Origin: Terriglobia bacterium | Lineage (GTDB): Bacteria; Acidobacteriota; Terriglobia; Terriglobales; Acidobacteriaceae | Assembly: GCA_020073105.1 (NCBI GenBank) | Contig: JAIQFW010000075.1 | Span: 1-53,619, forward strand | DNA: 53,619 bases | Direction: 5' to 3' | Part shown: positions 5,898-44,479 of the stretch, one piece after another | How the letters are laid out: each line of letters starts with the position of its first letter | Numbering within the stretch: the stretch's first letter is position 1 | The notes under the pieces: generated by a model | What the model was told of the DNA's origin: nothing | Seen by the model: the letters and a program-made list of their open reading frames with translations, nothing else | Database searches by the model: none | Made by a program: the position numbers and the translations under genes

Positions 5898-5913
5898 CCG
5901 GCAGTATTACAGC

Positions 5914-6321: not shown

Positions 6322-6337
6322 GTCTAAGCATAGCAGG

Positions 6338-6384
6338 AACATATTCGCCTTGACAAATATGTTTGCCGCTGGCATCATATTCGC
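6338..6384 (+). promoter_or_regulatory. ars promoter with ArsR-type operator
   Basis: TTGACA (6350-6355) and CATCAT (6373-6378), 17 bp apart, form a likely sigma-70 promoter for arsM. Perfect 8-bp arms AACATATT (6338-6345) and AATATGTT (6356-6363) flank and touch the -35 box, as expected for an ArsR operator. CATATTCGC is also repeated directly at 6340 and 6376. Assignment to ArsR rests on position. Confidence 0.6.
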
Positions 6385-6409
6385 TTAGACGTATTTATAG
6401 GAGCCTTCC

Positions 6410-7198: not shown

Positions 7199-7255
7199 GT
7201 CGGGAAAGCAGCAATCCGTTGTGAACCTTCATGGCCTCGTGCTTGCAGTCTCTTC

Positions 7256-7290
7256 AAAACCACAAAGGACACAAAGGTACACGAAGAAAA
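7256..7290. repeat. ACCACAAAGGACACAAAGG dispersed repeat
   Basis: A short element in the arsM-arsC spacer, of the same type as the CACAGAGGACACAGAG copy at 14121. It is non-coding. Confidence 0.5.
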
Positions 7291-7307
7291 GAACTGGGGA
7301 GAAAGTC

Positions 7308-8833: not shown

Positions 8834-8897
8834 CAGTCTCGCTGCTGCGCCGAAATGCCAAGATGCCTCAGGTCTGAAAAGCGGGCCTTCTGGCTTG

Positions 8898-9183
8898 TCA
8901 GTAGGCTTCCTTTCGATGGCGGAAAGAGTGCATCACGACATCGGTTCCAAAGATGTCGTAACGCAAACGGTATTCGCGCCAGCGGATGCGCCATTGCCCA
9001 TCGCCAGGCTTGAGACCGGCGAGTTTCTTGATCGCATGCCGGCCGCTTCGATTATGTGGATCTTCGGCGAGGATGGGCATCAGCTCTTCCAGTGCCTCCA
9101 CCATGACCTGATTGCATTTCGAGGTCTTCCGGAAATCCCGCTCGAACGAAGGAAGTCGTCAGGACGCGGAATTGCGGATTCAT
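8898..9183 (-). pseudogene. RelE/ParE-type toxin with +1 frameshift
   Basis: Read from ATG 9183, eight bases after the antitoxin stop, the protein begins MNPQFRVLTT. After nt 9154 the homologous continuation PSFERDFRKTSK...VEALEELMPILAED lies in the +1 frame, and skipping one T (about nt 9153) joins the two. The second part has the RelE-fold signatures HAIKKLAGLKPGDGQWRIRW and YRLRYDI...VMHSFRHRKEAY. Joined, the product is about 94 residues, normal for the family. The second frame has no usual start codon before the internal ATG at 9104. So the toxin is probably dead, or the base is a sequencing error. Confidence 0.7.
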
Positions 9184-9191
9184 GCGGATGG

Positions 9192-9479
9192 CTATTTTCT
9201 TGCTTTGGCAGTTGCCGGCCGAAGGTCAGCTAGGAACTCAGTCCCTTTACGGGCTTTTCCTCTGTGATACTCGGCATTGCTCTTCCCGATCTGCCTCCTG
9301 AGCGAGGGATCACGAAGTTCCAGGTAGTCTTCCAGGTCATCTACGTGCATGAGACCCACGACAGGAATGCCGTCTTTCTCGAGAATGAAGAACTCCCGGT
9401 TAACGTGCGCCCGTCGGACAACTTGGCCGAGGTTGATGCGGGCCCGGGTCAGCGGAATACGATGCACTATACTTTTCAT
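9192..9479 (-). CDS. Phd/YefM-type antitoxin
   Basis: This 95-residue protein starts MKSIVHRIPLTRARINLGQVVRRAHVNREFFILEKDGIPVV, the usual Phd/YefM DNA-binding and dimerisation domain, followed by LEDYLELRDP and a charged, probably disordered toxin-binding tail. It precedes the toxin by eight bases, the normal antitoxin-first order, and should repress its own promoter through the palindrome at 9482-9499. Confidence 0.85.
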   Translation of the reverse strand: MKSIVHRIPLTRARINLGQVVRRAHVNREFFILEKDGIPVVGLMHVDDLEDYLELRDPSLRRQIGKSNAEYHRGKARKGTEFLADLRPATAKARK

Positions 9480-9481
9480 AG

Positions 9482-9532
9482 TTGATCAATATTGATCAAT
9501 ATTGATTGTAGGCTGTAGCGCAGGACTGTCAA
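9482..9532 (-). promoter_or_regulatory. Toxin-antitoxin promoter and palindromic operator
   Basis: On the minus strand TTGACA (9527-9532) and TACAAT (9505-9510) are 16 bp apart, a strong sigma-70 match. Directly downstream is the perfect 18-bp palindrome TTGATCAATATTGATCAA (9482-9499), continued by another TTGAT unit. It sits between the start of transcription and the antitoxin ATG and is a likely autoregulatory operator. Confidence 0.65.
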
Positions 9533-9553
9533 GGGCTCCATTCCCCAGGCTGT

Positions 9554-10453
9554 TCACTTGCTTCTCTGCAATTCGCGGTAGGCTTCGCTCTTGGAGATTC
9601 CCTTTTCTTTGGCGACTTTCTTCAGCGCCGCTTTCTCGTCAAGCTTCTCTTCTTGCATGATCTGCTGAAGCCGCTGGCGAATCGTCGGGCGCGCGAGGTC
9701 GCCCGTCCCCACGCGAGCTTCCCCCTCTTCCGCTTTGCCGATCAGCAGCGTGATCTCGCCTTTGACCGCGCGTGTCTTCAGCGCTTCCAGGGCCTGATCT
9801 GCGCGTCCGCGCAGGAACTCCTCGTGAATCTTGGTGACTTCGCGGGCCACAACCACGTGGCGCGCCGGACCCAGGACTTCGACGATGTCCTCCATCGTGT
9901 CCGTCAGGCGGTGGGGAGCCTCGTAGAATACCTGGGTGCGGGGTGATTCCCGGATGCTCTCCAGCAACGCCCGCCGCGGCCCACGTTTTGCCGGGAGAAA
10001 TCCGCTGAAGCGAAAGGCGTCTGTCGGCAGGCCGCTGGCGACCAAGGCCGCCAGAAACGCGGAGGCGCCGGGAATCGGAATCACCGGCACAAAGTGACGA
10101 ATGGCCAGCGTGATCAGTCGAAACCCCGGGTCGGAAATGCCGGGCATCCCGGCATCGCTGACGAGGGCAATGCGCGCGCCCTGCTCCAATTCAATCACCA
10201 GCTCAGGAGCGCGGGTCATCTCGTTGTGTTCGTGATAGCTGGTGGTCGGGGTCTGGATGGCGTAGTGGTTGAGCAGCTTCTGTGTCTGGCGGGTATCTTC
10301 GCAGGCAATCAGGTCAGCTTCCTTGAGAACGCACAAGGCACGCAGGGTGATGTCTTCCAAGTTCCCGATGGGCGTGGCCACCAGATAGAGGCCGGGAGCC
10401 AGGCCCGTGCCCTCATGTCCGGCTGCTGCTAACTTCTTTACCGACGAGGTCAT
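9554..10453 (-). CDS. rsmI: 16S rRNA 2'-O-methyltransferase of C1402
   Basis: The 299-residue protein methylates the ribose of C1402 in the ribosomal decoding centre. Seen: GLYLVATPIGNLEDITLRAL at the N-terminus, IACEDTRQTQKLLNHY, LVSDAGMPGISDPGF and VVVAREVTKIHEEFLRG, all of the SAM-binding tetrapyrrole-methylase fold of RsmI. A short C-terminal helical domain ends KEKGISKSEAYREL. ATG 10453 (MTSSVKK) fits the family better than the start 51 nt upstream. It diverges from the FmdB-like gene. Confidence 0.95.
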   Translation of the reverse strand: MTSSVKKLAAAGHEGTGLAPGLYLVATPIGNLEDITLRALCVLKEADLIACEDTRQTQKLLNHYAIQTPTTSYHEHNEMTRAPELVIELEQGARIALVSDAGMPGISDPGFRLITLAIRHFVPVIPIPGASAFLAALVASGLPTDAFRFSGFLPAKRGPRRALLESIRESPRTQVFYEAPHRLTDTMEDIVEVLGPARHVVVAREVTKIHEEFLRGRADQALEALKTRAVKGEITLLIGKAEEGEARVGTGDLARPTIRQRLQQIMQEEKLDEKAALKKVAKEKGISKSEAYRELQRSK

Positions 10454-10592
10454 CGACGCGAGTCTAACATCCGGTGGACGCGGACGCCCGCTCTCCACTG
10501 ACAACCAAATTGACGGAAAATATCGCAGACCCTAGAATCGAGAGCAGAAAGTCGAACCCGGATCGCGTCTCTGCGGCCAGTTTCAGGAGTCC

Positions 10593-10883
10593 ATGCCACT
10601 TTACGAATATCAGTGCAAGAAATGCCATCATCGCTTCGAACGCATTCAGAAGTTCTCCGATCCCCATATCAAGAAGTGTCCGGAATGCGGCGGGCCGGTC
10701 GAACAGACCATCTCCGCCCCGGCGGTGCAGTTCAAAGGGTCGGGTTGGTACGTGACTGACTACGCCAAGAAGTCGAGCACGCCGGCAGCGAGCTCGGAGT
10801 CGGGATCGAAGGGCGAGTCAGCGAGCAAGAAGGACGAAAAGCCGAAGGCAGAATCTGCGAGTAAGAAGGGCGAGAAGAAGTAA
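10593..10883 (+). CDS. FmdB-like zinc-ribbon protein
   Basis: This 96-residue protein begins MPLYEYQCKKCHHRFE and continues IKKCPECGGPVEQTISAP, giving two CxxC pairs for one zinc (CxxC-x~20-CxxC). The fold is that of the FmdB family, once thought to regulate formamidase and of unknown function elsewhere. The tail is low-complexity with Lys, Ser and Glu (SGSKGESASKKDEKPK), likely disordered. A GGAG ribosome site precedes the ATG. Confidence 0.88.
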   Translation: MPLYEYQCKKCHHRFERIQKFSDPHIKKCPECGGPVEQTISAPAVQFKGSGWYVTDYAKKSSTPAASSESGSKGESASKKDEKPKAESASKKGEKK

Positions 10884-10901
10884 GGTTCGAGCCAGGAAAA
10901 T

Positions 10902-10942
10902 CGCGAAACGCAGAGGTTGCGCTGAGGTCGCGGAGAAGGCTC
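10902..10942. repeat. CGCAGAGG-type dispersed repeat
   Basis: AACGCAGAGGTTGCGCTGAGG followed by CGCGGAGAAGG resembles the elements near 1098 and 14121. It lies between two convergent genes. Confidence 0.4.
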
Positions 10943-10954
10943 TTCCCACACCCC

Positions 10955-11467
10955 CTACCGCCACCTGGTGTCATATCCCAAGGCAAACAGAATCTGGTTT
11001 TCAAACTCATACTCCAGGATGGTGCGAAAATCGCTTTCCCTGGACTCCCAAGACGCCGCGTACTGGGTGATTTCCGGCTGGTACCGTGAATAGGCGGTTG
11101 CGTAACGGACGTCGCAGGGTTGGGGGCACAGGATCATGCCTGTGGGATCGGCCCGCTCAACTCCGGTCGCGGCAAGCAGTTCCTGGGAAGATACATCCGG
11201 TTTCGCAGCCACCGTAAGCTGAACCGGGGTGACGGCCCGGGCGCGCGAATCTCCGGGAAGAATCTGGGGGGAAGCGTTTGGCTGCACTGGGTTGAGGTCG
11301 ATTCTCTGCGCCAGGTTCTGCTGTGCGGCCTGCCAGATCGCCCACAGCGCAGCATCGGAATGGCGGGTTTGATTGACGAAGGCGACGGGTACAGGCTGGG
11401 GCGAATGGCCGTCGCCACATCCCAACAAGACCATTGTGAAAAAGGCCGCGAGCAGGCCTCGACCCAT
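10955..11467 (-). CDS. Hypothetical lipoprotein
   Basis: A 170-residue protein with a lipoprotein signal (FFTMVLLGCGDG, lipidated Cys at about residue 17). The mature part has an NLAQRIDLNPVQPNASPQ segment and a C-terminal half with two close cysteines (ILCPQPCDVRYATAY) and a mixed helix (ESDFRTILEYEFENQILFALGY). I do not recognise the family. It stands alone and converges with the FmdB-like gene. Confidence 0.55.
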   Translation of the reverse strand: MGRGLLAAFFTMVLLGCGDGHSPQPVPVAFVNQTRHSDAALWAIWQAAQQNLAQRIDLNPVQPNASPQILPGDSRARAVTPVQLTVAAKPDVSSQELLAATGVERADPTGMILCPQPCDVRYATAYSRYQPEITQYAASWESRESDFRTILEYEFENQILFALGYDTRWR

Positions 11468-11577
11468 GGTTCACCTACCCAATCTATCGGCACGTATGCC
11501 GGGGACCTTGAGTCTTGAATCCTTTCAGGAGGTGGACCATCTAAAGGGTGGTAAATAGTCGTTATAACGAGGATTCC

Positions 11578-12276
11578 ATGATCAACATTCGCCGCAGTAA
11601 CGAACGCGGGGGCGGCAACCACGGTTGGCTGAACACCCGCCATACTTTCTCGTTCGACCAGTATTACGACCCGAAGTTCATGGGTTTCCGGTCGCTGCGG
11701 GTCATCAACGAAGACGTTGTCGCGCCGGGCGAGGGCTTCCCTACGCATCCCCACCGCGACATGGAAATCATCACCTATGTCCTGGAAGGCGCGCTTGAGC
11801 ACAAGGACAGCCTAGGGACAGGTTCGGTCATCCGCCCGGGCGATGGACAGCGCATGAGCGCGGGCCGTGGTATCCGCCATAGCGAGATGAACCCTTCACC
11901 TACGGAAGCGGTGCACCTGCTGCAGATTTGGATTATGCCCGACAAACAAGACCATGATCCCAGCTACGAGCAGAAGGCGTTTCCGGAGGCTGAAAAGCGC
12001 GGCAAACTCCGCCTGATTGCGGGTCCCGATGGCAAGGACGGTTCAGTGACCATCCACCAGGATGCCAAGTTGTACGTCACGCTCTTGTCCCCCGGCCAGG
12101 AAGTGAACCACGAACTCGCAAAGGGCCGCCACGCCTGGCTGCAGGTCGCCAAGGGCACGGTCGAATTGAATGGAAAACCGCTCGAGCAGGGGGATGGCGC
12201 GGCCGTGAGTGACGAGCCCAAGCTCAGCATCAAAGGAACGAAAGACGCCGAGGTGTTGCTGTTCGATCTGGCATGA
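11578..12276 (+). CDS. Pirin-family bicupin
   Basis: A 232-residue pirin/YhhW-like protein. The metal site is complete: His57 and His59 (GFPTHPHRDMEII), His101 and Glu103 (GRGIRHSEMNP), the same residues that bind iron in pirin and in YhhW, which has quercetinase activity in vitro. The natural substrate is not known. ATG 11578 (MINIRRSNERG) is chosen over an upstream ATG 30 nt away since homologues start here. Confidence 0.9.
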   Translation: MINIRRSNERGGGNHGWLNTRHTFSFDQYYDPKFMGFRSLRVINEDVVAPGEGFPTHPHRDMEIITYVLEGALEHKDSLGTGSVIRPGDGQRMSAGRGIRHSEMNPSPTEAVHLLQIWIMPDKQDHDPSYEQKAFPEAEKRGKLRLIAGPDGKDGSVTIHQDAKLYVTLLSPGQEVNHELAKGRHAWLQVAKGTVELNGKPLEQGDGAAVSDEPKLSIKGTKDAEVLLFDLA

Positions 12277-12278
12277 TT

Positions 12279-12312
12279 TTCGCCGCAGATTTACGCCGAT
12301 CAACGCTGATCA
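12279..12312. repeat. CCGCAGATTTACGCCGATCA dispersed repeat
   Basis: A copy of the same family as 980 and 19603, starting right after the pirin stop. A related ATGCAAATCCGTGGCTAG follows at 12355, at the 3' end of the next gene. Confidence 0.5.
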
Positions 12313-12368
12313 AGCTAGAGAAATGCAACGACCCACGGGTGTAACGGCAATCGGATGCAAATCCGTGG

Positions 12369-13268
12369 CTAGAATTTTGGTCCGCCGATGTCGGTGAAGA
12401 CAGCCTCCTGCCAGCGCTCTGAGGGGAAGTACCAGTTGCTGGCACCGGCCTCGTGGTTGTTGTCGCCTGCACCAAATCCGACGGTTGGGTTGCGCCAGTA
12501 ATCCATGCCCATCTGCAGCAAGGCGCCCCTGGAAATCTTCACTCGCTCCTTCACCGTGCAGCCCGCCAGCCCTCCTGGAGGCAATGCCGGCCTCGGCGAG
12601 GCACTCCAGAAATGCCAAACCCGATCGGCGCGCTGGCCTACGCGAAGCACGACAGCGTGATTTGGCGGGTCATAAGTGAACGGCATGGGCTCGTGCTGGT
12701 CGGTGCCGAACCAGGGATTTCGCCGGTAAAGCCCACCGCGAACCCGGCCGACGTCGTCGTTGAGGACAACGTCATTCCCGTCGACCCGGCAGGAAAGCTG
12801 GGTCCAGGCAACTTCCACTGTGGCAGATTCGTAGCCCGGCACGCGGGTATCGGCGATCGCGATTCCCCAAAGTAGCACGGAGTTGAAACCGGGAGGCACC
12901 GGGATGGTGCTTACGTATCCGGACTTGTAGCTTACTTCGTCGGGCACGCGGGGGTCGTTTACGACGACGAATACAAACGGACTGGAAGCCCGAGCGTGCG
13001 CTGTGACGACCGTGATCTGAGAAGACGGCGTGCGGTGCGGGACGATGGCAACGACCTTCTCCCCCGAAATTGGCTTGAAGACAGAATTGTTGGCCCCGAA
13101 GAGCACGGCAGTGACTTCGCTCAGGTTCCTGCCTGTGATCTCCACTCTCGTGCCCTCAGGCCCGCTGGTGGGGGAAATGCGGAGGATCTCCGGCGGATCT
13201 GTCTGCCCAGGAGCAGCCAGAACGCCACATACAGCCAAGAAGACCAGAAATTCGCCGAGCCATTTCAC
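12369..13268 (-). CDS. Secreted TIG-domain protein
   Basis: This 299-residue protein has a signal peptide (WLGEFLVFLAVCGVLAAPGQ) and an IPT/TIG domain at about residues 25-100 (ILRISPTSGPEGTRVEITGRNL ... SPFVFVVV). The remainder (about 110-299) is of no family I recognise: a beta-rich stretch with VAWTQLSCRVDGNDVVL and a Trp-rich end. It is likely an extracytoplasmic binding or surface protein. Its stop region overlaps a dispersed-repeat-like sequence. Confidence 0.6.
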   Translation of the reverse strand: MKWLGEFLVFLAVCGVLAAPGQTDPPEILRISPTSGPEGTRVEITGRNLSEVTAVLFGANNSVFKPISGEKVVAIVPHRTPSSQITVVTAHARASSPFVFVVVNDPRVPDEVSYKSGYVSTIPVPPGFNSVLLWGIAIADTRVPGYESATVEVAWTQLSCRVDGNDVVLNDDVGRVRGGLYRRNPWFGTDQHEPMPFTYDPPNHAVVLRVGQRADRVWHFWSASPRPALPPGGLAGCTVKERVKISRGALLQMGMDYWRNPTVGFGAGDNNHEAGASNWYFPSERWQEAVFTDIGGPKF

Positions 13269-13414
13269 AGATCATTATTCGCCAGATTGCCCCGCCCGCC
13301 TTCAAGAAAAAGTCACGATGCCGAAGCAGATTCCCAAAAGGAGAATTCCTCAGCCTGCCGGTTGCCACCAGCTTTGGTGAGCCGTATATTGTTGAGTGCA
13401 CGGAGAGGGCAATC

Positions 13415-14119
13415 ATGAATAAGAAGAAGTTCTTTGAACAACTCGATGCGCGAGTCGCCAAGTATGACCTGCTCTGCCATCCTTTTTACAAAGCCTGGGC
13501 CGATGGCCAGCTGACCCGTGAGGACCTGCGGGAGTATGCACAGGACTACTACCATCACGTGGAAGCGTTTCCCACCTATCTCGCCGAACTGGGTATCCGC
13601 CTGGAAGATGGAGAGTTGCGCCGGGCCATTCTGGCCAACATGGCGGACGAAAAGGGCGTGGAGGACGTTTTCGGGCAGCCGGCGCCGGCCCACTCCGAGC
13701 TGTGGCTGGATTTTGCCGAGGGCATGGGCGCGCATCGCGACCTGGCCGGACATTCGCCGCTGCCGGAAGTCCGGGAACTGATCGGGTTCTTCCACCGCGT
13801 GTCCGGCGAGGGCGCGCCGGAAGAGGCGTTGGCGGCTTTCTATGCCTACGAGTTGCAGGTGCCGCGCGTGGCCAAGGAAAAGGCGCGCGGGCTGCAAGAG
13901 ATGTACGGCGCCGACGAGCGGACTTCGTCCTACTTCACCCTGCACACCACGGCGGATGTCTACCATTCGCGAGTCTGGCAGCAGCAACTGGGCAAGCGGC
14001 TGGAGTCGCATCCGCAAATGGCGGAGAAGGCGCTGGCCGCGGGAGAGAATGCTGCCAAGGCACTGTGGCATGCGCTGGACGGGATTGAGGCGCGCAGGAT
14101 GGCGAAAGCGGCGGCGTAG
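13415..14119 (+). CDS. CADD-family diiron protein (putative p-aminobenzoate synthesis)
   Basis: A 234-residue all-helical protein of the TenA/PqqC/haem-oxygenase fold. HPFYKAWADGQLTREDLREYAQDYYHHVEAFPTYLA and TLHTTADVYHS match the CADD branch (Chlamydia protein CT610), which makes p-aminobenzoate for folate by sacrificing its own tyrosine. Candidate metal ligands are Glu79, the Glu in YAYELQVP, and the H...D..H set in TLHTTADVYHS. Tyr25 and a lysine in RVAKEKARGL sit where CADD's reactive Tyr and Lys are placed, from memory. A GGAGAGGG site precedes the ATG. The next two genes are on the same strand but unrelated. Confidence 0.8.
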   Translation: MNKKKFFEQLDARVAKYDLLCHPFYKAWADGQLTREDLREYAQDYYHHVEAFPTYLAELGIRLEDGELRRAILANMADEKGVEDVFGQPAPAHSELWLDFAEGMGAHRDLAGHSPLPEVRELIGFFHRVSGEGAPEEALAAFYAYELQVPRVAKEKARGLQEMYGADERTSSYFTLHTTADVYHSRVWQQQLGKRLESHPQMAEKALAAGENAAKALWHALDGIEARRMAKAAA

Positions 14120-14120
14120 G

Positions 14121-14156
14121 TCTTCACCACAGAGGACACAGAGATCACAGAGGGGC
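14121..14156. repeat. CACAGAGGACACAGAG dispersed repeat
   Basis: The clearest copy in this window of a widespread intergenic repeat, just after the CADD-like gene. Related forms lie at 1098, 7256 and 10902. Confidence 0.55.
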
Positions 14157-14203
14157 CACTGATTCGATAGAATCATGGCTCTTTCTTTTTGGTTAAATCT
14201 CAT

Positions 14204-34369: not shown

Positions 34370-35662
34370 CTACCGGGCTTCTGCGGTTTGCAGGTCCAGC
34401 CCAACCCGCTCGCCGTTGACCAATAGCGTTCCGGCGTCAATCAGTTGTTGTCCCGTGCAATCGTATTTCTCGTAGCAGCGTAACGCGGAGAATGGGAAAT
34501 AGAATTCAACTGCCTGTGAGCTGCCGGACGCGGATTTAGCCGACGCATGGATCGTTGTGCTGAAACCGATGCCGTCGAAGTTCTGTTCGCCCTTGAAGTA
34601 GGTAAGCACCGGGCGAACCAGGTGGGCGATGTGATCGTCGAACGCCAGCGCCGTCAGCTTGTAACGCGACGCAGCAGCCGACTCCGACAAGACCGTGTTG
34701 ATGGAGAGCTCAAGGTAGATACCCTCGCGAAAAGCCACGAATGTCGGCTTGGCGTAGGCCACGAAGTGAGCCTGCGCGTCGAGCTCTTTCACCATCTGGT
34801 CCACAATCGGCTGGTCTGCAGCTTGTAAGGAGGAGAGCGCCTGCGGAGATGTATCGCGTGGCGGCGCCGGCGGTGCTGCGGGCTTCGGGCTGGGCGCCTT
34901 AACAGCAGGGACCGGCTCGGGCGATGGGCCCTCGGTGGCGCCCCCATTGACCATCTCTACGCTTGCCTTGGCTGGAGGATCGCCAGCTTCGCTGGCCCGC
35001 TTTCGCGCTGATGTATTCGCTGCCAGTTGCGGGCCTTCGCCGCTAAACCAGATGGTTACTGGTTGGGCATTGAGAAAGACTTGCCCTTTCAGCAGCGCTG
35101 CTTGCTTGACGTTGTCATCCTGAGATCCCACCAAACGGATCGCGTCCCCCTGGGGGATGAACACCATGAGGTTCTCCGGCCTTTCCATGGACACGGTCAT
35201 CACACGGCCCATTACGTGGTGGGACACCTCGATCGCGTAGCCCTGGATATGACTGTTCGACTGGAAGCGAGGTACCGCCGCCTTCAGGATCGGCATCACC
35301 ACGTCGAGAAAAGTGGCGCGAGCTCGCTGATCGGGGGTGAGTTTGTCTCCGGAGTAGGCGGCATAATAGTTGCCCGTGATTGCCAACACCGTCTCCCCGT
35401 TGTAGCGGTTGAACTGGATGGAGCGTTGCTCGGCACGCTCCTGCTCCTGGAGATCGATGTCGAGTTTCCGGCTGAGATAGAACGGGTATTGGAACTTCAA
35501 TCGCAGGATATCTTTCCCTGCGAGTGTCAGGTCGTCGGTATATTGCAGTTGCAGGGCGCTGAGTTCCGTGTCTTTGATCTCTGCCGGCGAAACTACCTGG
35601 GAATGCAGCGTACTAAGCGCCAACAAAACGACACCACACGCCAAGACACTATTTCTGAACAT
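34370..35662 (-). CDS. Secreted protein of unknown function, last gene of the respiratory operon
   Basis: A 430-residue protein with a signal peptide (SVLACGVVLLALSTLHSQ). Two globular parts are joined by a Pro/Ala-rich linker at about 225-275 (EPVPAVKAPSPKPAAPPAPP). No haem motif is present. The first part includes QYTDDLTLAGKDILRLKFQYPFYLSRKLDI and the second KPTFVAFREGIYLELSINTVL and YFPFSALRCYEKYDCTGQ. I do not recognise the family. It overlaps the cytochrome lipoprotein gene by 14 nt, so it is co-translated with the complex and may be an assembly factor or periplasmic subunit. Confidence 0.7.
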   Translation of the reverse strand: MFRNSVLACGVVLLALSTLHSQVVSPAEIKDTELSALQLQYTDDLTLAGKDILRLKFQYPFYLSRKLDIDLQEQERAEQRSIQFNRYNGETVLAITGNYYAAYSGDKLTPDQRARATFLDVVMPILKAAVPRFQSNSHIQGYAIEVSHHVMGRVMTVSMERPENLMVFIPQGDAIRLVGSQDDNVKQAALLKGQVFLNAQPVTIWFSGEGPQLAANTSARKRASEAGDPPAKASVEMVNGGATEGPSPEPVPAVKAPSPKPAAPPAPPRDTSPQALSSLQAADQPIVDQMVKELDAQAHFVAYAKPTFVAFREGIYLELSINTVLSESAAASRYKLTALAFDDHIAHLVRPVLTYFKGEQNFDGIGFSTTIHASAKSASGSSQAVEFYFPFSALRCYEKYDCTGQQLIDAGTLLVNGERVGLDLQTAEAR

Positions 35663-36383
35663 AGTAGGTTCCAGCAGGACGATAGGGCGGATCAGAGACC
35701 ATACGGATGTAGGCCAGCAGTGCTTGGATCTCCATTTTTTTGAGAGTATAACCGTAAGGCGGCATCAAAGGTGACTTATTGAGAGCGGGCCCGCCGTGAC
35801 TGATGATAGCGGTTAAATCAGCGTCGCTCATCTTATTAAGAGTGTCGCCCTCGGTAAAGGAGTGGGGCTTCACTTCGAGATTGTCGTAATTCGAAACCCG
35901 CTCCGGCGTCGATTCGGGATTGTGACAGCGATTGCAGTAAGTCTCATCCAAATGCGCTCCCAACCGTTCTTGATCGCCGAGCGCAATTTCCTCCAACTTG
36001 AGGTCAACGCTCTTCTGTGCCTTAGTGTGTGTGGACGCCCCTAGTTGATACCGTCCTGCCATGCTGCCCAGCATCACGTTGGTGGTGAATTGTCCGCTTG
36101 AATCGGTCACGCCGCTTGCTGGATCGAAACTGACGCCCCTGGGGCCGGTGAATTCGACCGGCGCGCCTGCCACGCCATTGCCCTGGTCGTCATTTACTTG
36201 TACCACGACCGGTTGCGGCAGCGTAGTGCCGACGCCACCAATTTGCTTGCCACCGCTGGATTCAACTAACGCAGTGCCGAATGCCGTGGGCGTTGGCCCG
36301 ACAGCAGAGGTGTTTTTACGGGTGCAGCCCCATAATGCTGCGCAGATCACGATCAAACCCACTAGGATTGTCTGCCGCATCAT
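35649..36383 (-). CDS. Ig-like domain/cytochrome c lipoprotein
   Basis: A 244-residue lipoprotein (lipobox ALWGC, Cys20). Residues ~35-130 form a Big1-like beta domain (VVVQVNDDQGNGVAGAPVEFTG ... VTDSSGQFTTNV), and the C-terminal part is a class I cytochrome c with C150NRCH154 and Met207 (SPLMPPYG) as a likely second ligand. A monohaem electron carrier tethered to a membrane. It overlaps the octahaem gene by four bases. The Ig-cytochrome union is unusual and may dock onto another envelope component. Confidence 0.85.
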   Translation of the reverse strand: MMRQTILVGLIVICAALWGCTRKNTSAVGPTPTAFGTALVESSGGKQIGGVGTTLPQPVVVQVNDDQGNGVAGAPVEFTGPRGVSFDPASGVTDSSGQFTTNVMLGSMAGRYQLGASTHTKAQKSVDLKLEEIALGDQERLGAHLDETYCNRCHNPESTPERVSNYDNLEVKPHSFTEGDTLNKMSDADLTAIISHGGPALNKSPLMPPYGYTLKKMEIQALLAYIRMVSDPPYRPAGTYYVQK

Positions 36384-38470
36384 TTTCGCGCCTCCAACCT
36401 GGGAACTCTTTCGCCCTGAACCTTCGCTGCCTTGTTCCCCGGCCGCCCACCACTTCTCTGACTCATGAGGAATGCAGTCAGCGCCCGCGCATCATCGTCG
36501 CTCATGTTGCGGTTCGGTTCGACGGTTCCCGGCCGCAAGGACTGCGGATCTTTGAGCCAGTGATACACCCATGCCGCCGTCAAGCGTGATCCCACTTGCG
36601 TCAGAGTTGGCCCAACGTAGCCCTTGTCGGCCTTTGGATCCACGATATGGCAGGACTGGCAAGCATACTTCGAATAGAAAAGTTGCCTGCCCTGCTCCAC
36701 CTGCACGCGCGAATCGCCACTGCTGTCAATGGAATCACGGTCGAACGCCGGTGTCTGATAGACGGTCATGATGTAGTCGGTAAGCAAATTGATCTCACTG
36801 TCAGCCAAATTGAACTTCGGCATCCGTCGGATCAGTGCAGGGCGTAGCGTGTTCGGGTTCTTCAGGAATTGCTGCAGCCACGCGCGCTGCACCGAGGTGC
36901 CTTCCCAGCTCAGATCGGGCGCCATATCGCCACCACGCCCGTTAATCTTGTGGCAACTGAAACACGCGAGGTCTGACATCAACTGCCCCGCCTTGCCGGC
37001 AGGCTGATAAGTCGATTCCGGCGTGGCTGTGACAGCCAGCGCGGGCGGGATCGTCTGCGCGCGGTCGGTGCGCGAAAGCAACGCAGTTGTCAGTGCGTCG
37101 ATTTGTTGCGTAGTAAAAGTGTACTGCGGCATTTTGAGCGAAGATCCAAATGACCGCGGCTGGCGAATCTTCGCCGAGATGTAATTCGGTAAGGCGTGCT
37201 GCATGCCCGGCAGAAAGATCAACTGAGTGATGGGCTTGCTGCCGATTCGTGTCAGTTCTGGCGCGAAGTTCTCCGGTCTCTTGATGCCGTTGATCTCGTG
37301 GCAGGCCGCGCAGCCGTACTCCTGCACCAGGGTCTTGCCGTGAGTAATCTGCTCGGGCGTCGCTGGGTCCAGGTGTACATTCGCCAGAAAATCAGAATCG
37401 GACTTGGCTAGCAGGAACGTTCCCAGCGTGGAAATCTGCTGGTCGTTGAAGCGGTAGTGCGGCATGCCGGTCGGCGGATCGTACACTCGCGGATTTCGTA
37501 GCCACGCCGTGAGCCACTCCGGCTTGACCTTGTTTCCAACTCGCGTCAACTCGGGTCCTACATTCCCGCCAACCACATTCCCCGCTGCATTCTGCACCGC
37601 GTGACAGGAGGCGCAGAATGACTCGCCGTAAAGGCTTGCTCCCGCCGTGGTATCGCCAGGTTTCGCACTTACGGTCGCTGCATCGCCTGCAACCGGCGTG
37701 CTGTTTGCAACCAGGAACGCGGAAATGTCGCGAACGTTGTCGTCGTTCAATTTGAAGTTGGGCATGGTTGCGGACGCTGCATAGGCTTGCGGGTCCTTTA
37801 ACCATGCATAGATCCATTCGCGGGTAGTCTTGTCGGCAATGTGGGAAAGTGACGGCGGATCGTCCGTCGCCTTCATCGTGTCTCCGCCCGGCAATTTGAT
37901 GGTGTGGCAGTGCACGCATCCTTCACGTGCAAGCAAGTTACGCCCTAGATTCAATTCCGGAGTCTCCGCGAGGGGCGCGCGGTGGCACTGCCCGCAGGAG
38001 GCTTCTGTGTACCGCGCCGGCAGAATGGGCTGTTCCCAGGCGAGGGTGCTGCTGTGGGCTTCTTCCACCGTGGTCGCCGCACCCTGCCCGCGATGGCACA
38101 TCACACAGCCGAACTGGTCCACGTTGTGCGCCATCACCGGGTGTCGGCGAAATGGCTGGAGTCCCACATCGGTAAGCGTTGCTTCTTTCTGTCCGACATG
38201 ACATGTGGTGCAGCGGTCAACTACGCCTAACTCCGGCAGCCAGTTTTGCTGAATGCCGCCCCGGAAGTGGCGGCGCAATGTCACGGCGTCGCCGCGCCCC
38301 TGGATCAGCGACAAATACTGATTCTGATAATGTCGCCACTCGCTAAAATGGTTTTTCGCCGGTGCGATCGCCAGCGAAACTAGAAACACCAGGCTGACCA
38401 CCCCGAATGCGCGTATCGGACTACCGAACAGTATCTGCCGCAGCGACGGTTTGTTTGTCGATGATGGCAC
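36380..38470 (-). CDS. Octahaem membrane-anchored cytochrome c
   Basis: A 696-residue protein with one membrane anchor (about 20-37) and eight CxxCH sites: C87TTCH, C122VMCH, C159GQCH, C185VHCH, C286ASCH, C387AACH, C503FSCH and C604QSCH. Haems 4-8 belong to five class I modules, each with a candidate Met ligand (M236, M336, M447, M550, M656, mostly in MPxF/MPxY). The first three are closely spaced like a small multihaem domain. It directly follows the b-type subunits and replaces cytochrome c1/f as the electron exit or entry wire of the Rieske/b complex. Confidence 0.9.
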   Translation of the reverse strand: MPSSTNKPSLRQILFGSPIRAFGVVSLVFLVSLAIAPAKNHFSEWRHYQNQYLSLIQGRGDAVTLRRHFRGGIQQNWLPELGVVDRCTTCHVGQKEATLTDVGLQPFRRHPVMAHNVDQFGCVMCHRGQGAATTVEEAHSSTLAWEQPILPARYTEASCGQCHRAPLAETPELNLGRNLLAREGCVHCHTIKLPGGDTMKATDDPPSLSHIADKTTREWIYAWLKDPQAYAASATMPNFKLNDDNVRDISAFLVANSTPVAGDAATVSAKPGDTTAGASLYGESFCASCHAVQNAAGNVVGGNVGPELTRVGNKVKPEWLTAWLRNPRVYDPPTGMPHYRFNDQQISTLGTFLLAKSDSDFLANVHLDPATPEQITHGKTLVQEYGCAACHEINGIKRPENFAPELTRIGSKPITQLIFLPGMQHALPNYISAKIRQPRSFGSSLKMPQYTFTTQQIDALTTALLSRTDRAQTIPPALAVTATPESTYQPAGKAGQLMSDLACFSCHKINGRGGDMAPDLSWEGTSVQRAWLQQFLKNPNTLRPALIRRMPKFNLADSEINLLTDYIMTVYQTPAFDRDSIDSSGDSRVQVEQGRQLFYSKYACQSCHIVDPKADKGYVGPTLTQVGSRLTAAWVYHWLKDPQSLRPGTVEPNRNMSDDDARALTAFLMSQRSGGRPGNKAAKVQGERVPRLEARK

Positions 38471-39076
38471 TTAACTCCTCCAGGGCCAGACCCATGACCA
38501 GCCCGGGCCTCGGAAAAATGTTCCAACAGTTGTGAGTACCACTAGTTCCAGCAGAAACCACGTCATGATCCAGTAAGAGAGCGGTTTGGAAGCCAGGTAG
38601 CGGCGAAAAGGTGTGCCCGAGTCCGGTGAACTCTGCGCGGCGAGCATCATGAAGGCGCTGACAATCAGGGTCGGGCCCAGGGCTACATACACGTCGAACA
38701 CCAGCAGAAACAAGGAGAGCAGGATTGCGACCACATAGAAGATGCGCAAGCGGCGGGCGCGGTCCTTGAGGAACAGCCCCTCAGCTTCTACGTTGATATT
38801 GAAATAAGGGATCCAGGGCGCTTTCGCGGGGTTAGGAGTGTGCGATGGATCGGCAAGGCCTTCGAGAGGCGCATTGAACAACAGCGAAATCCATACCAGC
38901 ACAATGGCCAGAACTTCAATGGCCACGATCGCGCGAAGTAACATCTCGGGGTAGGTCTGCAGCTGTTCTTCGTCACTCACTTTCACTTGTGCGGAAGTTC
39001 GCCGGGTGATAAATGCGATCCGCACCGGGGACTTGCGCGCGTTGGAGTCCATGCCGGCGGTAAAATCCTTGCTCAT
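38471..39076 (-). CDS. Cytochrome b C-terminal subunit (subunit IV-like)
   Basis: This 201-residue protein has three membrane helices and the sequence [15 protein letters not shown], which aligns with subunit IV of b6f complexes and the C-terminal half of cytochrome b, near the quinol-oxidation site. The classical PEWY is replaced by APWIPYF. The end is [18 protein letters not shown] 45-residue hydrophilic N-terminus is extra. It overlaps the cytochrome b gene by four bases and abuts the octahaem gene with no gap. Confidence 0.85.
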
Positions 39077-39873
39077 GACACCCCCTTGGGCAGCGCCTCT
39101 GCCACATCCGGCGGGCTAGAGCCCTTGGCGGCGAGCGTGCTGGGCTCGCTGTGATATGCGTATAGGCCCCCGTCCTTGCGAATTCGCCAGAAGTGGATCG
39201 CGATGAAGAAAATTGCGGCGAGCGGAAGGATCATGCAGTGCAGCACGTAAAATCGAAGCAAGGCGTTGGCATTGACCAGGTTTCCGCCGAGCATCAGGAA
39301 GTGAACCTTGTTTCCGAACAGGGGCACGGCCGAGGCGATGTTTGATCCCACGGTAATCGCCCAGAACGCAAGCTGGTCCCAGGGCAGCAGGTATCCCGTG
39401 TAACTCAGCAGGAGGGTCACGATGAGCAGCACAATACCGATCACCCAATTGAACTCGCGGGGCGGGCGATAAGCGCCACGGTAGAACACCTTGAACATGT
39501 GCGCGAATACCAGAAAGACCATGGCGTGGGCCGACCAGCGGTGCAGGTTCCGTAGAAACAGTCCGGAAGAGACCACGAACTGCAGGTCCTTAGTGTCCGC
39601 GTAGGCCTGCGGGACCGACGGATGGTAATAGAGCATCAGCAGGATTCCGGTGATCACCAGGATGAGGAACGTACCGAAGGTCAGCGTGCCCAGGTACCAG
39701 GTTGCACTGAAGCTGACCATCCGTCGCCGCACCTTGGTCGAGAACAGGTGGAGAAAGACGTTCTGCTGAATCGCCAGCGCATTGTGCAGCGTGCTCGACC
39801 CGGTCCCGCTGCGGAATATGGATCTCCAGAGCCGGGATGCACGCAGGGCGTCAAAATATGTCGTCTTGGCCAT
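39073..39873 (-). CDS. Cytochrome b (b6-type N-terminal subunit)
   Basis: A 266-residue four-helix protein binding two b haems. Ligands are His111 and His125 (14 apart) and His212 and His227 (15 apart); the wider second spacing is the b6f-type pattern. [22 protein letters not shown] is the conserved Qo-side loop. With the separate subunit-IV-like gene this is a split cytochrome b, as in b6f complexes of Firmicutes and cyanobacteria. The Rieske gene stops three bases upstream of it. Confidence 0.93.
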
Positions 39874-40364: not shown

Positions 40365-42269
40365 CTACTTCGGGCTCCCTCCTGCAAGCTGGGCTCTGGG
40401 CCGGCCCCCGGCGTCGATGGTCTCGACGGAGATCAACCCCGTCGGCTCCGCCGGAACCAGGTTGTACGATTCCATCGTGATCGTTCCCAGCTCGTCGGCG
40501 GCGACTTCATCCAACTCGACGCCAAACAGCTGCTGCTGATCTTGTATTTGTGCAATCGTGTCGGGCTCGAAACCGATTCGGTCGAGCGACACCAGTTGCA
40601 GGCATTTCTCCGGGCAAACATCGACGCAGCCTCCGCATAGAATGCACAGGCTGCCGTCCCACGGGTTCCCTTCGAAAATGGTGTTGACCCAACAATGCAG
40701 GCAACGCTGGGCCTCGAGCATGGCAGACTCGGCGTCGTAACCGACTTCGACTTCCGTCATTCCGGTCCGGCGGTCGAGCGACAACAGGGGGATCGGCTGA
40801 CGAACGATGTCGAGTAACTGCAGCGGCATGCTGTGTCTGCGCAGTACTTCCACCTCGACCACCGGCTCGGGATGTTTGTGCCCGCGCAGGTATTCGTCGA
40901 TTCCGACGGCAGCACGCTTGCCGTCCGCAACGCTGTCGATGATCAACCGCGGTCCGAACACGCAGTCGCCTCCCGCAAAAATTCCCGGAGCGGAAGTCAT
41001 CAGCGTTTGCGGATTCACCGCGATCAGTCCGCGCGGGGAGATCTCTACGCCATCCTCTGGCTTAAGGAAATCAAGCCGGGGAGCCTGGCCGATGGCCATG
41101 ATGAGCGTGTCGCATTCCAGCTGCGATTCGCTGCTCTCGTAGAAGGTAGGGCTGAAGCGCTTGTTCTCGTCGAAGACCCGCTTGGTTTTCAGCGTCTCCA
41201 GCGCCGCTACACGGTTGTTCTTGCCGATGACCTGCTTGGGGCCCAGGCCGGGATGCAGAATGATCCCTTCGGTCTCAGCCTCTTCAATCTCCTCCAGCGC
41301 CGCGGGCATCTCCTCGCGCCTCTCCAGGCAGACAATGTGGACCTCAGTCGCGCCCAGCCGAAGGGCCGAGAGGGAGATATCGACCATCTCTCGCGTAGCG
41401 ACTGCGGTGACGTTTTCCTGGGATGGCTCAACCTCTTCAACTCCGGCAACGTGCTGGCGCACTACCTCGCGAGCCGCCGAACGGGCCACGTCCATGGCGA
41501 CATTTCCGCCGCCAATCACAATCACCTTCTTGCCAATGGTGAACTTGTATCCCAGGTTGACGTTGAGTAAAAAATCGATACCCTTGTGCACTCCATCCAG
41601 GTCTACGCCGGGAATGGCGAGATCGCGGCTGCGATGCGCTCCCACGGCAACCAACACTGCATCGAAGCCTTGGCGCCGCAAGTCGGACACGGCGAAATCG
41701 CGCCCCGCCGCCTGATTGAGCTTGAGAGTAATGTCTCCGGTCTCCAGAATCTCCCGAACCTGCGCCTCCACCACGTCGCGTGGCAGCCGGTATTCGGGAA
41801 TGCCGAGATAAAGCATTCCGCCCGCCACCGGAGCAGCTTCAAAAATGGTTACTGAATAGCCCATCAACGCCAGATCGTGCGCCGCTGAGAGTCCAACCGG
41901 GCCGCCTCCCACCACGGCCACCTTCAAGCCCAAAGGTTTCTGAATTCGGCCCGCGTTGATATCCAGGTGGCGTTTCGATTCGGGCCCATAGCGTTCAGTC
42001 AGGAACCGCTTCAGGGCACGGATGGCAATGGGCCGGTCAATGTCACCACGGCGGCAGGCGGTCTCACAGGGGTGCGCGCAGACCCGCCCACAAATACTGG
42101 CCAGGGGATTGGGATCGCGAGCGAACTTGTAGGCTTCCTCGAAGCGGCCTTCGGCGATCAGGGCCACGTATCGCCCCGCGTTGGTATGTGCCGGACAAGC
42201 CATCATGCAGGGGAAGTTGGTATTCAGCCAATCCCGGTCGACTTTCTTGTCACGATAACGTTCCAGCAT
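40365..42269 (-). CDS. GltD-like NAD(P)H/FAD/FeS oxidoreductase
   Basis: A 634-residue protein built like the glutamate synthase small subunit: an N-terminal cysteine set for [4Fe-4S] (Cys21, 25, 60, 64, 68, 72), a FAD loop (VAVVGGGPVGLSAAHDLALMG), an NAD(P)H loop (VIVIGGGNVAMDVARSAA) and a C-terminal ferredoxin part (CILCGGCVDVCPEKC) plus CLHCW. No GltB partner is present. As first gene of the tight Rieske/cytochrome b set it probably exchanges electrons between NAD(P)(H) or ferredoxin and the complex. Anammox planctomycetes have Rieske/b complexes with a comparable subunit. Confidence 0.9.
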   Translation of the reverse strand: MLERYRDKKVDRDWLNTNFPCMMACPAHTNAGRYVALIAEGRFEEAYKFARDPNPLASICGRVCAHPCETACRRGDIDRPIAIRALKRFLTERYGPESKRHLDINAGRIQKPLGLKVAVVGGGPVGLSAAHDLALMGYSVTIFEAAPVAGGMLYLGIPEYRLPRDVVEAQVREILETGDITLKLNQAAGRDFAVSDLRRQGFDAVLVAVGAHRSRDLAIPGVDLDGVHKGIDFLLNVNLGYKFTIGKKVIVIGGGNVAMDVARSAAREVVRQHVAGVEEVEPSQENVTAVATREMVDISLSALRLGATEVHIVCLERREEMPAALEEIEEAETEGIILHPGLGPKQVIGKNNRVAALETLKTKRVFDENKRFSPTFYESSESQLECDTLIMAIGQAPRLDFLKPEDGVEISPRGLIAVNPQTLMTSAPGIFAGGDCVFGPRLIIDSVADGKRAAVGIDEYLRGHKHPEPVVEVEVLRRHSMPLQLLDIVRQPIPLLSLDRRTGMTEVEVGYDAESAMLEAQRCLHCWVNTIFEGNPWDGSLCILCGGCVDVCPEKCLQLVSLDRIGFEPDTIAQIQDQQQLFGVELDEVAADELGTITMESYNLVPAEPTGLISVETIDAGGRPRAQLAGGSPK

Positions 42270-42366: not shown

Positions 42367-42866
42367 CTACTTGGTTAAGGTGAAATCTGCAGTTGCACTG
42401 CCACTCACATTGACTGATTTTGACTGGTTCTTGGCGCCTTCATGCCAGGCGACGACGGAGTAGGTTCCATCGGGAACATTTTCGATCTTGTACTGTCCCG
42501 ACTTGTCGGTCACAGCGAAATAAGGCGTAGGCGAAACCACAACGTAGCCTGCCATTTCGGGATGAACGTTGCAGAGCAACGGTACCGCCCCAGGACTGTC
42601 GAACTTGAATGGGCGTTTTTCACCCTTCGGCCAGGTGCCGAGGTTGTGTCCCAGTTTCTTGTTGCCGCCAACGGAAAGCCAAAACACGTTGTGGGCAACG
42701 CTGTCGCTATTCAGAAAATCGACGGTGGTTCCCGCCCAGCGATGGTATCGACGTAGACTACCGACTCGCCTGCCACTCCTGACACCTTACCGCTGATCGT
42801 TCCTGCCTGGGCCGCAACCGCGAAAACCGCGACTAGAATGAGTGCTACGGACGTTCTGTAATTCAT
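42367..42866 (-). pseudogene. Plastocyanin/carboxypeptidase-regulatory-like secreted protein with internal deletion
   Basis: ATG 42866 (CAGGAGA ribosome site) opens NYRTSVALILVAVFAVAAQAGTISGKVSGVAGESVVYVDTIAG with a signal peptide, then hits a stop. In the next frame the protein resumes GTTVDFLNSDSVAHNVFWLSVGG, then FDSPGAVPLLCNVHPEMAGYVVV (a cupredoxin-like Cys-x-x-His...Met) and an Ig-like YKIENVPDGTYSVVAWHEG. About 27-30 residues expected between the two parts in homologues are missing near nt 42740, with a frameshift. It is either broken or misassembled. Intact, it would be a periplasmic copper electron carrier. Confidence 0.7.
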
Positions 42867-42898
42867 GTGTTCTCCTGTTATCGAAAAAATCGTTGCTC

Positions 42899-44479
42899 TT
42901 AGTACACCCACTCCAGCCCCGCCACCGCGGAATTCGTACGGAATGGGTTCGTCAGCCGCTGCGTGGTGCCTGCCGCATACACGATCTGCTGCGGGCGTAC
43001 CTGATACTCAAACGAAGCCTTGATGTTGGCGTGGATCAGGAACTGGATCCCTGGGGTGAAGCGGTTTCGGGTGGAATGGAGTGGCGAGACGAATGACCCG
43101 GCATCCGAGTCTGGAGTCGAACCAATGCCGTTAAACAGATCGGCTGTGGAACTAACCCGATCCCAGCGCATGATGGTCATCATCCAGGGCAGGACGAGAT
43201 AGTCCGCTTCCAGGAAACCGCCACTGAAATGGGCTGGGCTCCCAGTCGCAAATCCCGTCGGATTGGGATTGATTCCCGCCGGAAACACCGGCAGCAGGTT
43301 CTGGTCACGCCCATAAAGATACTGGCCGAAGAGGTTGAAGGTGCGGTAGTTGAAACTGAAGTCGCCGCCGACCCGGTAGAAAGGTTCCCGCGCGGTCAGC
43401 ACTACAGGATTGGCAGCTAAGTCTTGTCCCTGGAAGCGTTGCACGGAGCGCCCGTAGAAATAAAGCGTGCCGAAGTTTAGGTAAGTATGGTCACGCGGCC
43501 CGGTCGCGCCTGCGGCTTGGATTTCGTTGCGGCTGGCCGGGTCGCGCTCCAGGTTGAAGCGGTAGGCAAAGCGCGCGTAGAGGTCCTTAAAATTGGAATC
43601 AGAGACGTAGGTGACGACCGGAGGCACGTTGTTTCCGCCGCTCGCCGACCCTCCCGTATTCTGGTTCACGATCGCAAGGGAATAATGGTAGCCGCGGTAT
43701 TGGTGCCCACCACTAAACTCCACGCCCTGCGCCGCGCTCGAAAGCGCAAAGCCGTTGTTGACATTCTGTTGTTGCGGGAACAGGGAGTTTGCCGAACCAA
43801 TGTTTGCCTGGTCGTAGATGTCCCATCCGCTCAGGTTCCAGCTGCGCGCCGGGCTGAAAGGCAGATCGAGTTCGAACTGTCCGACTCTCAGGCTGAGGGC
43901 GTCGGTGGGGAGCTTGAGGAACCGGCCGATATTGACGAATTTCAGGTAGCCGTCACCGAGCCCGCCGTCACTGGCCGAGCCTCCGACGCTGAGGTCGTCG
44001 TCCACCCAGAACGCGATGTCGCTGCCGAAGTTGCCGGCCATGAAGATGCTGAACAAGCCGGGCTGGAAGTCGGTACGCGGAATGAACTGTTGCCCGTCCA
44101 GGGTTCCGGGCGATTGCAGGTTGAAATTGTTGCGATTGTTGCTCACAACCTGAAAGAACGTGTTGAACCGTAGCCCGACCGGCGGCAGCCCCGGGATCAT
44201 TCCCGGGAAAATAGTATGGGGCCACATCTCCTTCTGCGCAGGGGCGCCGAGCATCACCGGAGGAATCTTGATGAATGTCTCGTCATCCTTGGGGAACTTA
44301 AAGCCCGCATCCTTGAACGCCTTGCCAAAATCATTCAGCTTGGGAAAATTGACGTGACAGGTGCTGCAGGAGGTGCCATATTGCCTAGAAAAAGCTGGAA
44401 TTGCGAAGCTATTGGTTGAGACCAAGACGAGAGCGAAAAGGCAAATGGCTCCAACCGTCAGGTGACTGCGCGTGCCCAT
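42899..44479 (-). CDS. Outer-membrane cytochrome-porin (Cyc2-like)
   Basis: A 526-residue protein with a signal peptide to about residue 26, then AIPAFSRQYGTSCSTCHVNFPKLNDFGKAFKDAGF holding one haem site (C38STCH42), then some 450 residues of beta-barrel ending in aromatic GLEWVY. The single N-terminal haem plus barrel, and the exact wording around it, resemble Cyc2, the fused cytochrome-porin of Fe(II) oxidisers. Related uncharacterised proteins exist in acidobacteria. GGAGG lies seven bases before the ATG. It heads the operon with a CRP-like site 98 bp upstream. Electron transfer across the outer membrane is inferred. Confidence 0.8.
   Translation of the reverse strand: MGTRSHLTVGAICLFALVLVSTNSFAIPAFSRQYGTSCSTCHVNFPKLNDFGKAFKDAGFKFPKDDETFIKIPPVMLGAPAQKEMWPHTIFPGMIPGLPPVGLRFNTFFQVVSNNRNNFNLQSPGTLDGQQFIPRTDFQPGLFSIFMAGNFGSDIAFWVDDDLSVGGSASDGGLGDGYLKFVNIGRFLKLPTDALSLRVGQFELDLPFSPARSWNLSGWDIYDQANIGSANSLFPQQQNVNNGFALSSAAQGVEFSGGHQYRGYHYSLAIVNQNTGGSASGGNNVPPVVTYVSDSNFKDLYARFAYRFNLERDPASRNEIQAAGATGPRDHTYLNFGTLYFYGRSVQRFQGQDLAANPVVLTAREPFYRVGGDFSFNYRTFNLFGQYLYGRDQNLLPVFPAGINPNPTGFATGSPAHFSGGFLEADYLVLPWMMTIMRWDRVSSTADLFNGIGSTPDSDAGSFVSPLHSTRNRFTPGIQFLIHANIKASFEYQVRPQQIVYAAGTTQRLTNPFRTNSAVAGLEWVY

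Follow-up and report, generated by a model that had tools for sequence, protein, structure and literature searches.

The closest described relatives of the system reported here are two gene sets of Kuenenia stuttgartiensis, Kustd1480-1485 and Kuste4569-4574, which encode b6-like complexes that include an NAD(P) oxidoreductase and in which a hexa- or octahaem cytochrome c replaces cytochrome f (PMC12954380). That study presents models of the complexes and measurements on their Rieske proteins, without biochemical characterisation of the complexes as a whole. We infer that the octahaem subunit is Kustd1485, as the larger one; its modelled haems lie in groups of two and three (PMC12954380). Here we analyse an acidobacterial gene cluster built around an octahaem cytochrome c gene, located in a window of 53,619 nucleotides (the whole stretch of contig JAIQFW010000075.1 that was analysed; assembly GCA_020073105.1, Terriglobia bacterium, Acidobacteriaceae). 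The cluster probably encodes a Kuenenia-type Rieske/cytochrome b6 complex linked to NAD(P), in which the octahaem protein would be a wire linking the quinone pool and NAD(P)H to an extracellular redox couple via a Cyc2-like porin.

Rieske/cytochrome b genes with further partners have been described in other organisms. The ext cluster of Geobacter brings together a porin, a Rieske protein, a cytochrome b and a multihaem cytochrome c, with ExtS described as carrying four haems (PMC5877670). A Methanoperedens Rieske/b cluster has extra multihaem c proteins, two of them pentahaem (PMC4683180), and in Caldithrix a Rieske/b pair is found in the Nap cluster (PMC5317091). Cyc2 was defined by Keffer et al. 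(2021) by the motif AXPXFAR[Q/K][T/Y] upstream of a single CXXCH, a PXL motif downstream, a 16-stranded porin like OprO/OprP and a length of at least 365 residues; potentials of +208 mV and +560 mV are given for the tested Cyc2 and for Cyc2 of A. ferrooxidans, respectively, and the function of cluster 3 Cyc2 is called the most uncertain (PMC8406198). Searches of the open-access literature in PMC brought up no description of a Rieske/b complex from Acidobacteriota that has an octahaem subunit or lies next to Cyc2, nor a pairing of Cyc2 with a bc-type complex.

The octahaem cytochrome

The octahaem protein (P0001) is encoded on the minus strand at 36380..38470 by one open frame of 696 residues with a GTG start; the plus-strand reading of the same interval contains 14 stops. 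A preliminary description of this DNA, which named no strand, had placed eight CxxCH haem sites in a single polypeptide, three of them close together after a membrane anchor, and the sequence bears this out. The clustered sites are at residues 87, 122 and 159 (spacings 35 and 37), and the remaining five at 185, 286, 387, 503 and 604 (spacings 101, 101, 116 and 101), compared with 0.012 sites on average, and at most 2, in 5000 residue shuffles. The anchor (residues 18-36; 38363..38419, minus strand) is the sole hydrophobic segment, with a hydropathy of 2.11 over 19 residues, and is part of a long helix, residues 18-56, in the predicted model.

The full-length homologues (longer than 640 residues and scoring above 500 bits) number 76 and come from two genome collections, with some species probably counted twice. 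All 76 carry eight CxxCH sites, so the frame is not a fusion made by misassembly. Nine shorter or weaker homologues stand outside this count, among them those of loci L063 (635 residues) and L066 (656 residues), which also have eight sites.

Pfam places Cytochrom_C in five stretches of the protein and Cytochrome_C7 at residues 118-189; neither the cytochrome c1 nor the cytochrome f family is among the nine families listed for the subunit. The haem triad corresponds to residues 87-163 (37982..38212) and the five cytochrome c class I modules to residues 171-672 (36455..37960), both on the minus strand. The AlphaFold2 model has a mean predicted local distance difference test (pLDDT) score of 76.8, with block means of 37-57 across residues 81-150, where the triad lies. 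A Foldseek search with this model gave no full-length match, and the best hit, 7zs0 (expectation value, E, 9.3e-4), was the sole match at or below 0.001. An octahaem enzyme of the HAO, Otr or OCC kind is ruled out, because haems 4-8 sit in class I domains. The SoxX family TIGR04485 scores above its cut-off in five stretches; these are matches to single class I domains and no sign of sulfur oxidation.

Ligand conservation was read from an alignment of 77 rows (the 76 homologues and the query). The Cys and His residues of all eight sites are invariant, as are His110, His115 and His139, which mark the triad as a candidate bis-His cluster. Met236, Met336, Met447 and Met550 are likewise present in 77 of 77 rows. 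Judged from the c7 and class I families, this pattern is in line with bis-His ligation of three haems and His/Met ligation of four. Module 5 has Glu651 in the Met slot (Glu in 72 rows, Asp in 3, Gln in 2); the nearby Met656, conserved as Met in 69 rows of 77, lines up by eye with the hydrophobic residue just after the Met of the other modules. The modules, of about 100 residues each, had all been described as Met-ligated, which stands for modules 1-4 with their invariant Met and fails for the fifth, whose slot holds Glu651; the count of five was therefore off by one. The same slot is Glu in L096 (GTIEP), a locus whose fetched stretch shows no bc core, and Met in L063 and in a second complex of the window's own genome (see below). 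When L063 and L066 are added (alignment A1), Met236 and Met336 drop from the invariant list, and L063 has Cys at both positions. In L063 (9893-11800) two class I modules have Cys for the expected Met (FCPTFGF and RCPRFRF), and its cluster has a CydA-like protein.

The gene cluster and its recurrence

The genes run on the minus strand in the order porin, cupredoxin, NAD(P) oxidoreductase, Rieske protein, cytochrome b6, subunit IV, octahaem cytochrome, a monohaem lipoprotein-like protein and a protein of unknown family. The octahaem gene directly abuts that of subunit IV. The earlier proposal that the octahaem protein takes the place of cytochrome c1 or f gains support from this position, directly after subunit IV, and from the lack of a c1 or f family match; gene order thus supports the assignment of the octahaem protein as the putative c-type subunit of a Rieske/cytochrome b6 complex. 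The porin, the cupredoxin and the NAD(P) subunit, none of which had been named, weigh more for function.

The porin gene (42899..44479, minus strand) encodes a Cyc2-like fused monohaem cytochrome-porin of 526 residues (AIPAFSRQYGTSCSTCHVNFPKL), which is inside the Cyc2 size rule and has a single CxxCH. The sequence AIPAFSRQY before this site is the Cyc2 motif with one change, Ser for Ala, and a PxL motif follows. A model built with 23 sequences contains 16 strands of at least seven residues, at low confidence (mean pLDDT 58, below 50 over the cytochrome stretch 22-96). The likeness to Cyc2 comes from the motifs, the single haem site and the 16 long strands of this porin-like, low-confidence model, and the Ser residue sets the window copy apart. 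In some relatives this place is taken by another Cyc2-like porin, whose motif reads AVPSYARQT, so the type of porin appears to be exchanged while the association stays.

The cytochrome b6-type subunit (39073..39873, minus strand; PF00033, 3.9e-43) has b6 chains as its best matches in the PDB (1.7e-43), and by position H111/H125 and H212/H227 would ligate two bis-His haems. Its only Cys is residue 213, and there is consequently no c_n-type Cys near the N-terminus; His42 in NVFLHL is, by position, a candidate for an interfacial b haem. The subunit IV-like membrane protein (38471..39076, minus strand; 201 residues) is encoded in an open reading frame (ORF) separate from that of cytochrome b, and PF00032 is matched in the intact relative L039. 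By simple hydropathy L039 has four helices and the window copy has three, against five in the Kuenenia type.

The Rieske [2Fe-2S] protein (P0004; 39877..40362, minus strand; PF00355) carries the motifs CTHLGC and CPCHGS. Its best PDB matches, 9rk4 and 9rk3, are the Rieske proteins of Kuenenia, with potentials of +303 and +335 mV (PMC12954380). Near the cluster P0004 has Ser, and Phe rather than Tyr, as in 9rk3, and a high potential is therefore likely. The adjacent gene (P0005; 40365..42269, minus strand) encodes a GltD/Nfn-like FAD-NAD(P) oxidoreductase of 634 residues with Fe-S domains (Pyr_redox_2, Fer4_20). It matches NfnA (9n5u, 1e-92) and NfnABC (9bov/9bp5, 1.5e-92), and 9bp5 was found by DALI for the Kuenenia NAD(P) reductase Kuste4570, once written Kustd4570 (PMC12954380).

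The cupredoxin gene (42367..42890, minus strand) encodes a CNVHPEM loop and a CarboxypepD_reg domain, and is broken by a deletion and a frame change near 42720-42736; in the intact relative L039 the cupredoxin scores above the cut-off for Copper-bind and under that for amicyanin. On the other side of the octahaem gene lies the gene of the lipoprotein-like protein (35649..36383, minus strand), which has a Big_1 domain and one CxxCH and whose start overlaps the octahaem gene end by 4 bases. In many relatives the cluster closes with the gene of the conserved protein of unknown family (34370..35662, minus strand), whose L039 homologue has no Pfam match.

Recurrence of the gene set was counted in 56 of 91 loci (window included), those with at least 7.6 kilobases (kb) upstream of the multihaem gene; 35 loci were dropped. 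The count scores presence, not order, and includes the divergent loci L063, L066, L098, L101 and L126. Rieske, cytochrome b and subunit IV genes were each found in 54 of the 56 loci, the cupredoxin in 53 and the NAD(P) subunit in 52. A porin with a relaxed Cyc2 motif was present in 48 loci and one with the strict motif in 18; it lies downstream of the octahaem gene in L053 and L059 and upstream elsewhere.

Scanning genome contigs yielded 67 loci, of which 59 bear the title Acidobacteriota or one of its subgroups, and the full-length ones are 62-78% identical. The other titles are Deltaproteobacteria for L063 (34%) and L066 (30%) and Xanthobacteraceae for L021 (78%), with five further weak matches. 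The octahaem and lipoprotein genes of L021 are 70-78% identical to those of the window, and its taxon label is probably a binning error. Outside the organism's own family, 20 of 28 listed matches were fetched, some on contigs that end inside the operon. They comprise 17 octahaem loci from 16 genomes of other Acidobacteriota families (about 34-41% identity) and three six-haem relatives. Rieske, cytochrome b and subunit IV genes accompany all 17 octahaem loci, the cupredoxin 16 and the NAD(P) subunit 15; the latter is missing in L112 and in L114, which starts at a contig end and also lacks the cupredoxin.

The multihaem proteins of the relatives appear to be built from exchangeable parts. Triad spacing is kept in 81 of 81 multihaem genes with cytochrome b in the locus (ORFs with at least six haems; the spacing ranges were chosen after examples had been seen). 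L096-L098 have a porin, a cupredoxin, a lipoprotein and a membrane-anchored six-haem protein with haem 3 and five beads, haems 1-2 being missing, and no Rieske, b or NAD(P) match in the 15-16 kb fetched. In four other loci without a cytochrome b match, L016, L021, L034 and L054, the contig begins close to the multihaem gene; L056 and L061, being too short, were skipped. In L099, L102 and L125-L127 a fused b-subunit IV protein accompanies a six-haem form made up of the triad and three beads, and a Cyc2-motif porin is in the locus for three of these five. In L100 (six haems, 3659-11822) and L101 (eight haems, 4657-14174), which contain NAD(P)-linked Rieske/b sets, the gene next to the multihaem gene encodes a molybdopterin oxidoreductase, and the outer partner therefore looks exchangeable. 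L063 combines a porin and a cupredoxin with the CydA-like protein and an octahaem protein whose start resembles a signal peptide, and has no Rieske/b match in the stretch fetched. From these gene sets, the core tends to be accompanied by haems 1-2 and the outer partner by the beads, a pattern that suggests a modular build of a c1/f replacement.

The window's own genome encodes a second complex on another contig (C140, locus L092, 5162-11654), with a Rieske protein, b6, subunit IV and a 1082-residue subunit with CxxCH sites in the same 3+5 order. A cupredoxin-like gene lies downstream. Its octahaem subunit is 25% identical to P0001 and has longer spacings, and on the 14-kb contig there is neither an NAD(P) subunit match nor a Cyc2-motif porin. 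Read from the sequence, this contig also carries a CtaA-like gene.

Proposed electron path and alternatives

The observed sequences, haem sites, ligand conservation and recurrence of the gene set are what we build on in proposing how the proteins may assemble and work as one complex. The bis-His triad would lie at the membrane surface, where electrons would pass between it and the Rieske cluster. Across the periplasm the five class I beads would form a flexible wire, passing electrons to and from the cupredoxin and the monohaem lipoprotein, and the wire would end at the haem in the periplasmic mouth of the Cyc2-like outer-membrane porin. In this way the quinone pool, and NAD(P)H through the cytoplasmic flavoprotein, could be coupled to an extracellular redox pair, perhaps Fe(II)/Fe(III); as has been suggested for Kuenenia, a low-potential branch may reach NAD(P) through the flavoprotein, possibly by bifurcation. 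We lean towards inward flow from an extracellular donor, because the porin resembles Cyc2 and the Rieske protein probably has a high potential.

Acidobacteriota dominate many soils, and little is known of their part in iron cycling. An operon that recurs among them and combines a Cyc2-like porin with an NAD(P)-linked Rieske/b set offers a concrete, testable route for extracellular electron exchange. Tentatively, this may be an unnamed, widespread though patchy pathway of Acidobacteriota, by which Fe(II) or an electrode would feed the quinone pool of soil heterotrophs via an octahaem protein wired directly to a Cyc2-type cytochrome, with NAD(P)H formed by reversed or confurcating flow.

The complex could instead be an ordinary quinol:cytochrome c reductase that feeds soluble carriers and terminal oxidases, next to a porin that only admits metals or anions. 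We consider this unlikely. The own genome does have four haem-copper oxidase matches above the family cut-off, its second octahaem Rieske/b complex shares a contig with the CtaA-like gene, and L092, L066, L100 and L101 pair a multihaem c protein and Rieske/b without a Cyc2-motif porin in the stretch fetched. However, the porin of the window has a haem site and a near-Cyc2 motif and accompanies the complex in 48 of 56 loci, a second complex of this kind would be redundant, and the NAD(P) subunit would be left unexplained.

Electrons could also run outward, as in the Ext pathway of Geobacter, with quinol electrons leaving via the complex and the porin to Fe(III), Mn(IV), humics or metalloids. 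The ext cluster likewise combines a porin, Rieske, b and multihaem c proteins, as described (PMC5877670), and among the proteins of the window cytochrome b scores best against ExtP, while ExtS is matched by the c subunit and ExtQ by subunit IV. Yet all these matches are below the NCBIfam cut-offs, both in the window (ExtP 259.6 of 290, ExtQ 34.2 of 150 and ExtS 83.6 of 100 bits) and in L039 (257.3, 55 and 94.2 bits). Moreover, the Ser and Phe residues of the Rieske protein, shared with Kustd1480 (+335 mV), suit a high-potential partner and are a poor fit for Fe(III) oxides, which at neutral pH lie near 0 mV, an objection that weakens at acid pH. Overall, outward flow seems to us quite improbable, though less so towards strong acceptors or in acid.

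Several observations weigh against the wire to an extracellular couple that we favour. The fifth module is without the usual Met, leaving haem 8 with no identified Met ligand. In the PDB fold search with the porin model OprP ranked first (E 5e-11) and OprO sixth and tenth; since generic porins occupied ranks 2-5, the match is to porins at large and is not specific for Cyc2. With the pattern used, a motif porin was not found in 8 of the 56 loci. Among these are near misses, L020 and L064 with Gly for the first Ala and L041 with the motif in a 279-residue ORF (cut-off 300); no motif was seen in L013, L017, L036, L066 and L101, the first three of which were covered by a looser search. L063 keeps the triad without Rieske/b in its locus, which counts against a strict link between triad and core. 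The operon is patchy: within the order, 30 of the 150 genomes, own included, have a full-length octahaem match above 900 bits, and across the phylum 39 of the 297 genomes have one that reaches E 1e-40 or better, whether full-length or not. RuBisCO was not found in the own genome. Of the 30 genomes with the octahaem gene 6 have a RuBisCO match, and of the remaining 120 also 6 (p=0.015); these matches are mostly low-scoring (one of 458 bits, ten of 213-238 bits and a fragment of 33.5 bits), so autotrophic iron oxidation is not indicated. The text on the peatland acidobacterial metagenome-assembled genomes SbA1-7 reports no dissimilatory iron genes save one putative metal reductase in SbA2 (PMC6018796); SbA1 is our locus L057 and carries this operon. 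The proposal itself draws on sequences and single-protein models.

Finally, three partner genes of the window copy carry lesions. Subunit IV lacks 31 residues (PW|YFLGLQE..., the Qo segment and a helix; near 38800-38830). P0005 lacks 27 residues including the last CxRCGxCxxxCP motif (near 40470-40500), and the cupredoxin gene lacks about 70 base pairs with a change of frame (near 42715-42740, by comparison with L006 and L039). Each of the three deletion junctions is at a GG, and the octahaem gene is unaffected. If the copy were decaying, the complex would have been lost in this strain, and relatives do keep the segments: the Qo sequence APWYF[LV]GLQE is present in 74 of 75 relatives, the 27-residue stretch in 47 of 47 NAD(P) subunits scoring above 700 bits, and the cupredoxin is intact in L006 and L039. 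But the octahaem, cytochrome b, Rieske, porin and lipoprotein genes are open and full-length, two of the three deletions are in frame, and three drops of similar size are more easily explained as assembly errors in a draft of 308 contigs (97.6% complete, and the only genome returned for its genus). Assembly dropouts therefore seem likelier than loss, and decay of the locus improbable.

Comparison with described complexes

The preliminary description stated that no characterised bc-type complex with exactly this subunit is known. In view of the Kuenenia complexes, with hexa- or octahaem cytochrome c in place of f, this was too strong, and the subunit type, at the level of published descriptions, has precedent. 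The window cluster shares with these complexes a b6-like cytochrome b, a separate subunit IV-like protein, the multihaem c protein instead of f, the closest Rieske proteins in the PDB and an NAD(P) oxidoreductase of the NfnABC fold class. It differs in its Cyc2-like porin and cupredoxin, with no HAO-like protein seen among its genes, and in a cytochrome b without the c_n-type Cys near the N-terminus.

The similarity to Geobacter ExtO-ExtP-ExtQ-ExtS consists in the clustering of a Rieske protein, cytochrome b, a membrane protein and a c-type lipoprotein with a porin, and the ExtS profile aligns with residues 114-350 of the octahaem protein. In contrast to the latter, ExtS has four haems, and the ext products listed in the source include no NAD(P) subunit (PMC5877670). 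The Methanoperedens cluster is archaeal and has separate pentahaem proteins, and its description mentions no porin (PMC4683180).

Cores with a hexa- or octahaem cytochrome c and an NAD(P) oxidoreductase are therefore known from Kuenenia, whereas the acidobacterial complex and its pairing with a Cyc2-like porin are apparently new, going by the open-access literature searched. The acidobacterial loci provide a comparison set for the debated Kuenenia complexes, in which a like core is combined with different outer partners: a porin here, an HAO-like protein in Kuenenia and molybdoenzymes in two acidobacterial loci.

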